From positions 1 to 40,607 of the forward strand of contig JAUWLW010000027.1 of assembly GCA_030613505.1 (NCBI GenBank): DNA of 40,607 nucleotides, given 5' to 3'. The position numbers were made by a program, and so were the translations under genes. Below are positions 31,216 to 33,184 of this stretch, piece after piece. Origin of the DNA: Candidatus Zixiibacteriota bacterium. Its GTDB lineage: Bacteria > RBG-13-66-14 > B26-G2 > WVWN01. The notes beneath the pieces were generated by a model that saw only the letters and a list, made by a program, of their open reading frames with translations, had not been told where the DNA came from and did no database searches. Positions within the stretch are counted from its first letter, which is position 1. Every line of letters begins with the position of its first letter.

Positions 31216-31240
31216 AAAAAGCCGGCCTTGGGGCCGGCTT
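31216..31240 (-). terminator. attenuator terminator upstream of ileS
   Basis: On the minus strand AAGCCGGCC (31232-31240) pairs over 9 bp with GGCCGGCTT (31219-31227) across a CCAA loop, followed by a run of five T (31216-31220). It sits 25 nt after the leader-peptide stop and 101 nt before the ileS ATG, so it would stop transcription before ileS unless the alternative hairpin forms. The two arms are called segments 3 and 4. Confidence 0.85.
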
Positions 31241-31264
31241 GGGTTTTACTTATTGTGTTTCTTC

Positions 31265-31342
31265 TTAGGGCATACGCAGCCGGCCCGACCGGGGTAGGTC
31301 GATAATTATGATTATGGCGCTGGCCAGCTTGGGGTACGTCAT
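31265..31342 (-). CDS. ileS leader peptide with five consecutive isoleucine codons
   Basis: This is a 25-codon open frame on the minus strand starting ATG 31342. The leader AAGGATTGACC gives a ribosome site at the right distance, and the stop is TAA at 31265-31267. The peptide is MTYPKLASA, then five Ile (codons ATA ATC ATA ATT ATC at 31301-31315), then DLPRSGRLRMP. It lies between a TTGACG/TATATA promoter and the terminator before ileS. Its control codons match the enzyme encoded downstream, as in trp, his, leu or ilv leader peptides. It is probably made only to sense charged tRNA-Ile, not to act as a protein. Confidence 0.85.
   Translation of the reverse strand: MTYPKLASAIIIIIDLPRSGRLRMP
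31278..31329 (-). promoter_or_regulatory. pairing segments 1 and 2 of the ileS attenuator
   Basis: Segment 1, AGCTGGCC (31322-31329), lies just before the Ile codons. Segment 2, GGCCGGCT (31278-31285), lies just after them. They can pair over 8 bp with one G-U, putting the Ile codons in the loop. Segment 2 can instead pair perfectly with AGCCGGCC of segment 3 (31232-31239), forming an antiterminator. Because GCCGGC is self-complementary, several pairings are possible; only the linear order and spacing favour the attenuator reading. Confidence 0.75.
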
Positions 31343-31367
31343 GGTCAATCCTTACTTCTTACGTGAA

Positions 31368-31396
31368 TATATAACACAAAGGCGCCGCGGCGTCAA
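31368..31396 (-). promoter_or_regulatory. sigma70-type promoter of the ileS operon
   Basis: TTGACG (31391-31396), 17 nt and TATATA (31368-31373) on the minus strand. The start would be near 31361, about 19 nt before the leader-peptide ATG. Between 31115 and 31522 the only other features I see are the leader, the attenuator, and the divergent promoter at 31460-31488. Confidence 0.75.
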
Positions 31397-31522: not shown

Positions 31523-33184
31523 ATGAAGGGCTTAGGGTTTTACATCTGCTTAGCGGTTATCGTCGCCGTGACGGCGGCCGCGGCCGTCGAGCAGGGGTGG
31601 TACATCACCACCGTTGACGAAGGGACGGGCGTCGGTATGATGTGTTCGCTCGCGTTGGATGCGGCGGGTAATCCCCATATATCTTATTGTGACATATCCG
31701 GACAGTATCTGAAATACGCTTATTTCGACGGTACCTCGTGGCACGTCGACGTCGTAGATAACGAATCGGCAACGGGGCAGTACAGCGACCTCGCCCTCGA
31801 CTCCGCGGGCCATCCCCATATTTCATATTCATATTACCAGACCTTTCCGTACCCCCAACTCCGGTACGCTCATTTCGACGGGACCGCTTGGCGTATATGC
31901 ACCGTGGATCGCGAGGGCGGCATGCATACCTCAATCGCCCTTGACGCGCAAGGCCGGCCCCATATAGCTTACGGCGAGTTTATTAGCCCCAAGTTTTCCA
32001 ACTTGCGGTATGCGTATTACGACGGCACGCAGTGGCACCGCGAGGTATTAGATACCGGTGCGTGCGCGGGGTACTGCACGTCAATCGCTTTGGACTCCCG
32101 GAACCGGCCCCATATCTCATACCAGGACGATTACCTACACTGCTGGTTAAAATACGCGTACTATGACGGCGCGCGGTGGCAAATCACGACGATCGATAAA
32201 TCGTTGAACGCTACAGGGATGGAGAGTTCGATCGCCGTAGATGCCGCCGGACGGCCACACATCTCTTATCAAGAGGATATATCGGAGGCCTTGAAGTACG
32301 CTAATTTCGACGGTACGCATTGGCACGTTACGACCGTCGACGAAGGCGACGTTCAACTAGATACGTGTATCGCGTTGGACGAAAGCGGCCGCCCTCGCAT
32401 AACGTATTACGCGGACCGGGATACCGGCGGCCAGTTGTTGGCGGGCGAGTTAAGATACGCGTATTTCGACGGGGCCGCGTGGCACAGAGAAGTTATCGAG
32501 GCGGGCGGCGAGGGCGAAAGGCCGGGGGTTTGGAATTCCCTCGCCCTCGACGCGGCCGGGGTACCCCACGTAGCTTACTGCCGGAGCGTCGGTTATTTTG
32601 ATTTCAGTTCGCTCAAATATGCGTGCCGAGTCGGGAACTATCTCAACTACTTCACGGCGGCGCCCAGGGGCTACGACGGCCTGGCGCTTACGTGGTCGGT
32701 TAAATCTCCTCTGGGTGAACAAATAGAGGGTTTTAACCTCTACCGCGGCGAGGAGGGCGAGAAGGAATGGCTGAAGATAACCGAGACTCCCTTGCCAGGC
32801 GGCGGCTCGGGCTCGTACGGTGACCGGGGCCTGGCTTGCCTTCGGTGTTACGAGTACTTGTTGGAGGGTATCGTCGAGGGGAGGCCGCGGCAACTCGGCA
32901 TCACGGAGGGTACGACCGGCGTGCCGCAAGCCTTCGTCCTCCACAACGCTCGCCCGAACCCGTGGTCGAGTAAGGCCGTGATCGCGTTCGAGCTTACGGA
33001 CCGGGCTGACGTGGAGCTAACGGTGTTCGATATAGCGGGCCGCAAGGTCGCAACGCTGGCGCAGGGATGGCTGCCGCCCGGCGCGCACGAACGCGAGGTC
33101 TCGGCCCTCGCGCCCGGCGTCTACGTCTACCGCTTGCAGGCGGGCGATTGGGCCGGCGCGAAGAAGATGGTGGTGGTGAGGTGA
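31523..33184 (+). CDS. secreted seven-repeat beta-propeller protein with T9SS-type C-terminal domain
   Basis: This 553-residue exported protein has a signal peptide (cleavage near AAAAVEQ). Seven repeats of about 50 residues then follow, each with a core like SIALD(A/S)xGxPHISYxD and LKYAYFDGTxWH; seven copies fit a seven-bladed propeller. A fibronectin-III-like module comes next (about 370-450; FTAAPRGYDGLALTWSV, EGFNLYRGEEG). The last 80 residues are a T9SS type A-like sorting domain (ARPNPWSSKAVIAFELTD, FDIAGRKVATLAQG, GVYVYRLQAGD, ending KKMVVVR). It is probably surface-exposed or released; T9SS machinery is not in the window. ATG 31523 follows GGGAGG. Its repeats use more AT-rich codons than neighbours. 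Ligand unknown. Confidence 0.88.
   Translation: MKGLGFYICLAVIVAVTAAAAVEQGWYITTVDEGTGVGMMCSLALDAAGNPHISYCDISGQYLKYAYFDGTSWHVDVVDNESATGQYSDLALDSAGHPHISYSYYQTFPYPQLRYAHFDGTAWRICTVDREGGMHTSIALDAQGRPHIAYGEFISPKFSNLRYAYYDGTQWHREVLDTGACAGYCTSIALDSRNRPHISYQDDYLHCWLKYAYYDGARWQITTIDKSLNATGMESSIAVDAAGRPHISYQEDISEALKYANFDGTHWHVTTVDEGDVQLDTCIALDESGRPRITYYADRDTGGQLLAGELRYAYFDGAAWHREVIEAGGEGERPGVWNSLALDAAGVPHVAYCRSVGYFDFSSLKYACRVGNYLNYFTAAPRGYDGLALTWSVKSPLGEQIEGFNLYRGEEGEKEWLKITETPLPGGGSGSYGDRGLACLRCYEYLLEGIVEGRPRQLGITEGTTGVPQAFVLHNARPNPWSSKAVIAFELTDRADVELTVFDIAGRKVATLAQGWLPPGAHEREVSALAPGVYVYRLQAGDWAGAKKMVVVR

Follow-up and report, generated by a model that had tools for sequence, protein, structure and literature searches.

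A predicted leader-peptide attenuator upstream of ileS and sister leaders at valS and leuS in Candidatus Coatesbacteria

Leader-peptide attenuation is classical for amino acid biosynthesis operons. At a synthetase gene, a familiar likeness is the attenuator of Escherichia coli pheST, in which a leader with cognate Phe codons and a terminator/antiterminator precede the gene. This attenuator is mentioned in PMC1262725, where candidate attenuators with a predicted leader peptide, antiterminator, and terminator are described for leuS and trpS of Streptomyces. His leader peptides have been reported for the hisS/hisZ paralogues of Bacilli (PMC2965389).

We analyzed a window of 40,607 nucleotides, that is, the whole stretch of DNA under study, from a genome of 2.86 Mb and 62% G+C (G000) that belongs to Candidatus Coatesbacteria, an uncultured lineage. 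The parts identified upstream of ileS are listed in Table 1. An earlier note on this DNA had proposed an isoleucine leader peptide and attenuator at this position. All coordinates given there (promoter, ribosome site, ATG, 25-codon frame, Ile run, segments, and terminator) turned out to be exact, base for base; this includes the run of five Ile codons within the 25-codon frame and the intrinsic terminator before ileS, which a terminator scan also found. Two elements go beyond that note, namely a promoter between the terminator and ileS (P2) and leaders at valS and leuS elsewhere in the same genome.

Table 1 Features upstream of ileS in the window (genome G000)
Feature	Position	Strand	Description
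Promoter P1	31396..31368	-	TTGACG 31396-31391, 17-nt spacer, TATATA 31373-31368
Shine-Dalgarno AAGGA	31353..31349	-	6 nt 5' of leader ATG
Leader peptide ORF MTYPKLASAIIIIIDLPRSGRLRMP, 25 codons	31342..31265	-	ATG 31342, stop TAA 31267-31265
Segment 1 (AGCTGGCC)	31329..31322	-	pairing partner of segment 2; genus-level only
Ile-codon run, predicted sensor	31315..31301	-	ATA ATC ATA ATT ATC, five consecutive
Segment 2 (GGCCGGCT 31285-31278)	31286..31278	-	antiterminator 5' strand, within leader codons 19-22
Intrinsic terminator	31240..31216	-	9-bp GC-rich hairpin and T run; also called by terminator scan
Segment 3 (AAGCCGGCC 31240-31232)	31240..31231	-	common to antiterminator and terminator
Segment 4 (GGCCGGCTT 31227-31219) and T run 31220-31216	31227..31216	-	terminator 3' strand and tail
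Promoter P2	31179..31151	-	TTGACA 31179-31174, 17 nt, TAAAAT 31156-31151; 11/12 consensus matches; 3' of terminator
ileS, isoleucine--tRNA ligase, 917 aa	31114..28361	-	TIGR00392 905.5 bits vs cut-off 621.4

The -10 box of P1 is preceded by TG (TGT) and thus represents an extended -10 element. The gene at 31523 is divergent, so that no co-directional gene immediately upstream feeds into the leader and P1 is its likely promoter; we infer that P1 drives the leader transcript. The RNA from P1 to the terminator would comprise ~145 nt, most of which are coding. The divergent gene (31523-33184, plus strand) encodes a BNR-repeat protein, the C-terminal sorting domain of which (Por_Secre_tail) is marginally sub-threshold. 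Within leader codons 15-19, immediately 5' of segment 2, a mini hairpin GACC-N6-GGUC (31300-31287, minus strand) was observed, the stem of which is kept in three genomes; it is possibly an RNA polymerase pause hairpin.

In order to follow the element in relatives, we used a sample of 14 Candidatus Coatesbacteria genomes, in which G001-G003 belong to the same genus as the window genome, G004 to the same order (another family), and G005-G006 to the same class. An Ile leader followed by a terminator precedes ileS in all four near genomes with a readable region (G000, G001, G003, and G004), which bears out the expectation that related ileS loci carry the Ile-rich leader, the terminator, and the pairing segments. 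The fifth, G002, was excluded from the leader count owing to an N run in the scaffold at the leader region; in this scaffold (CP070633.1; L033 2900-2999), the N run lies inside ileS, joins it to an unrelated gene, and is probably a scaffolding gap. The leaders of G001 (MYSRQPANAIIIIIDLPRSGRLRMP) and G003 (MNHHEPASIIIIIIDLPGSGRLSMP) both have 25 amino acids and are accompanied by P1, terminator, and P2; both P1 boxes are kept. The number of Ile codons is five in G000 and G001, six in G003, and three in G004, and within the genus the run differs by synonymous changes and by one whole codon (the sixth in G003). The genus alignment (G000, G001, and G003) displays islands of identity at P1, the ATG, the core of segment 1, the Ile run, segment 2, the terminator, and P2, while the sequence has diverged 5' of P1 and from the terminator to P2.

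G004, whose IleRS is 62% identical, has a leader of 11 amino acids (MNTFVIIIGNT) that is unrelated in sequence to the genus leaders. It is nevertheless equipped with its own P1 (TTGACC-17-TATATT), a terminator, and a 10-bp antiterminator that begins at the UAG stop codon. The architecture has thus been kept between G000 and G004 through a complete turnover of sequence, which helps to explain why such elements escape RNA searches based on families. In the more distantly related Coatesbacteria (G005-G010), ileS was not seen to have an Ile leader, nor was a convincing one found at 62 further ileS loci, other lineages included; the sole match among them (L011) was judged to be a chance hit.

Cognate leaders followed by an intrinsic terminator were also found at valS in five of five genomes (poly-Val) and at leuS in four of five (Leu-rich), the leuS gene of G004 having no leader. 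The Val leaders lie immediately 5' of valS in G000 (MPEVLKVAVVVVVSGAPARPR), G001 (VEIIKVAVVVVVRGAPARPW), and G004 (MSHDVKKVVVDVVVKGPPVATR) and are separated from it by another gene in G003 (MIETASVVVVVVDGASARPR) and G002 (MIRSQEVVVVVVVRGARARPR). The intervening gene is acetyltransferase-like in G003 (L247 1479-2643), and the same upstream gene is present in G002 (L276), so that in these two genomes the attenuator seems to govern both genes together. The leuS leaders (G000, MYLKNSRQLALLLREA; G001, MYLKSSRQLVLLLREA; G003, MRNEGCRQLALLLEEA; G002, MLKGCRQLALLLLQEA) contain only three to four adjacent Leu codons. Altogether, codon run and downstream enzyme agree in their amino acid in 13 leaders (ileS 4, valS 5, leuS 4), and a sigma-70-type promoter is located closely 5' of the leader in 13 of 13 cases. 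In all four leuS leaders (L123, L122, L121, and L177), the ATG follows the -10 box after only 6-7 nt; the mRNAs from which these peptides are translated are therefore probably leaderless, a situation described for Sinorhizobium trpL (PMC7298713). At valS and ileS of G004, the interval is 8-10 nt.

CTA accounts for 10 of the 20 Leu codons in the leuS leaders (4% of Leu codons genome-wide) and GTA for 15 of the 21 Val codons in the valS leaders (17% genome-wide); ATA, with 8 of 19 Ile codons in the ileS leaders vs 35% genome-wide, is not clearly enriched. Theory ties leader codon choice to attenuation sensitivity (PMC1183508), and the excess of CTA and GTA in the leuS and valS leaders fits a role in attenuation. 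Three parallel leaders in one genome provide a natural test set for the effects of codon choice, spacing, and stop-codon position on attenuation sensitivity.

Ten other synthetase genes (metG, hisS, thrS, proS, serS, pheS, tyrS, trpS, argS, and cysS) have no cognate leader. A three-Arg run at argS is of a sort common in a genome of this G+C content; Trp-rich frames 5' of trpS in G005 and G006 lie out of frame within a longer, apparently protein-coding open frame; and terminators 5' of tyrS and metG lack cognate codons and appear to end the upstream gene. Neither ilvC (L214), which stands after unrelated genes, nor an ilv operon was found to have a leader. Although ilvC is present, no clear acetolactate synthase (PF02776) was detected in G000 (L237), G003, G004, G005, and G009, the acetolactate-synthase-like match of G000 being, as judged from its sequence, a pyruvate-oxidase-like protein fused to rubredoxin. 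The usual route of branched-chain amino acid synthesis may be absent from these bacteria.

An Ile-rich short frame could in principle stand beside an ordinary terminator by chance, and runs of five Ile codons are indeed found elsewhere in short frames that lack a terminator. Five consecutive Ile codons are, however, present at only three places in the G000 genome, and among ~756 kb of its strand sequence, using a loose terminator definition, we found no further case in which a short ORF with at least four Ile, Val, or Leu codons in a row precedes a terminator. The fold of the leader has a z score of -2.8, with one of 200 whole-leader shuffles folding equally well, and only 0-1 of 300 shuffles of the antiterminator strand matched the original in the window. 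Together with the recurrence in four genomes with conservation at the codon level, and at three cognate genes, which refutes a coincidence, these data leave practically no probability for this explanation.

The pairing scheme was assessed by folding 12 of the 13 leaders (all those at ileS and leuS, and the valS leaders of G000, G001, G003, and G004). The ribosomal A site was set to the stop codon or to either the first or the last of the regulatory codons, the leading edge was assumed to lie 15 nt beyond the first base of the P site, and the RNA not covered by the ribosome was folded. In line with the geometry that the earlier note had described for ileS, segment 2 stays free when the ribosome stalls and is masked once it reaches the stop codon (12/12 leaders). 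With the stalled ribosome, segment 3 pairs with upstream RNA at 0.62-1.00 before segment 4 is made; with the ribosome at the stop codon, the terminator forms at 0.85-1.00 (12/12 leaders each). When the upstream strand was shuffled, the observed fold was reached by 0-3 of 300 shuffles in ten leaders and by 33 of 300 in valS of G004, the antiterminator of which is thus weak by folding and also has a duplex energy no better than that of shuffles (175/300). At equilibrium, the terminator often beats the antiterminator even when the ribosome is stalled, for example in ileS of G003 and leuS of G002, and the model hence needs co-transcriptional timing, i.e. kinetic antitermination. Antitermination is kinetic in classical attenuation systems as well. 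Of the three pairings proposed originally, 2:3 and 3:4 are retained, while 1:2 comprises 8, 8, and 6 bp in G000, G001, and G003, respectively, but is absent in G004; the 1:2 hairpin therefore appears to be accessory and not part of the core.

The Shine-Dalgarno sequence and ATG of ileS itself come after P2, which is kept in G001 and G003 with the exact 17-nt spacing and is weaker in G004. A perfect hairpin (CGCGGC-TTAAC-GCCGCG, 31149-31133, minus strand) directly 3' of the P2 -10 box is largely kept in G000, G001, and G003 and would occupy the 5' end of a P2 transcript. One could argue that P1 belongs to a separate small gene or sRNA ending at its own terminator and that ileS is transcribed from P2 only, all the more as P2 is a strong and conserved promoter in a suitable position and, in distant Coatesbacteria, ileS has no leader and is directly preceded by a TTGAC-type promoter. 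This would leave unexplained both the runs of cognate amino acids before three synthetase genes and the complementarity of segments 2 and 3 in the leaders. Moreover, the terminator at leuS lies only ~35 nt from the ATG, which provides hardly any space for a bypass promoter. We thus regard an independent P1 unit as very unlikely and favor attenuation of ileS. Since distant relatives have only the promoter directly before ileS, the attenuator module would seem to have been added to a pre-existing ileS promoter. Given the position of P2 3' of the terminator, the attenuator would gate P1 transcripts only, making the control of ileS partial instead of all-or-none, and the short distance at leuS indicates that ileS, valS, and leuS may differ in the strictness of gating.

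Taken together, the element is very probably a ribosome-mediated transcription attenuator for ileS that senses charged tRNA-Ile. The loci contain what defines a leader-peptide attenuator at the sequence level: an ORF between a promoter and a terminator, cognate codons, the terminator itself, and a mutually exclusive antiterminator, the latter as computed and weak in valS of G004. The parts, their conservation, the match between codons and gene, and the geometry come from sequence and comparison; from these we infer that both promoters are active, that transcripts terminate, and that the element responds to charging. RNA polymerase would start at P1 and a ribosome would translate the leader. 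With ample Ile-tRNA, the ribosome would reach the stop codon and cover segment 2, allowing segments 3 and 4 to form the terminator. When Ile-tRNA is scarce, it would stall on the Ile run, free segment 2 would pair with segment 3, and the polymerase would read into ileS. P2 would supply an ungated basal level of ileS, to which the attenuator would add a starvation-induced increment. The proposal that a leader sensing charged tRNA-Ile controls ileS is thus supported by the relatives and by the valS and leuS leaders, but not as the sole control, since P2 would bypass it.

The genes ileS, valS, and leuS would then form a set, each with a leader rich in its own amino acid. We consider it likely that in part of Candidatus Coatesbacteria leader-peptide attenuation, and not T-boxes, constitutes an amino-acid-specific regulon for these three genes, comprising the first known leader peptides at ileS and valS and, at ileS, a gated and an ungated promoter. 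While the mechanism is already known, the targets ileS and valS and the phylum appear to be new. In the literature searched, ileS was found only with T-boxes, and no leader peptide at ileS or valS; the survey of synthetase attenuators by Lopatovskaya et al. (2010), reportedly the most relevant one, lay outside this scope, and we claim no priority. With these findings, the known range of translation-sensing attenuation at synthetase genes would come to include an uncultured phylum and two further targets, ileS and valS.

T-boxes are a known device at ileS of Gram-positives, and the Ile T-boxes of Firmicutes and Actinobacteria share both the gene and the signal, tRNA-Ile charging, with the element described here, although their RNA binds the tRNA directly. 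As Naville and Gautheret described switches between T-boxes and leader peptides (PMC2965389), control of ileS by a T-box, or by some other leader that binds a tRNA or a metabolite, has to be weighed. The T-box model RF00230 had no match in the 14 Coatesbacteria genomes, the site included, whereas five control genomes gave matches. No Rfam family exceeded its threshold at the site, Trp_leader being nearest (19 bits vs 41), and the short, mostly coding RNA between P1 and the terminator also argues against a binding-type leader, which we hold to be extremely improbable. An attenuator at ileS and valS in this phylum would show that evolution is free to settle on either a T-box or a leader peptide.

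Among leader-peptide systems, the classical trp, his, ilv, and leu attenuators and the ilvB uORF motifs (PMC10272879) are alike in logic, but control biosynthesis operons, whereas the targets here are synthetases and ilvC is without a leader. The Bacilli hisS/hisZ genes likewise have a leader peptide in place of a T-box at a synthetase gene outside the Proteobacteria; they differ in that histidine, a single amino acid, is concerned, in Firmicutes, compared to a branched-chain set here. In Streptomyces, predicted leader attenuators precede synthetase genes including leuS, but in these Actinobacteria ileS has a translational T-box and no valS or ileS leader is reported (PMC1262725). The element described here differs from pheST of E. 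coli in amino acid, gene, and phylum, and the second promoter behind the terminator is a feature of ileS in this lineage.
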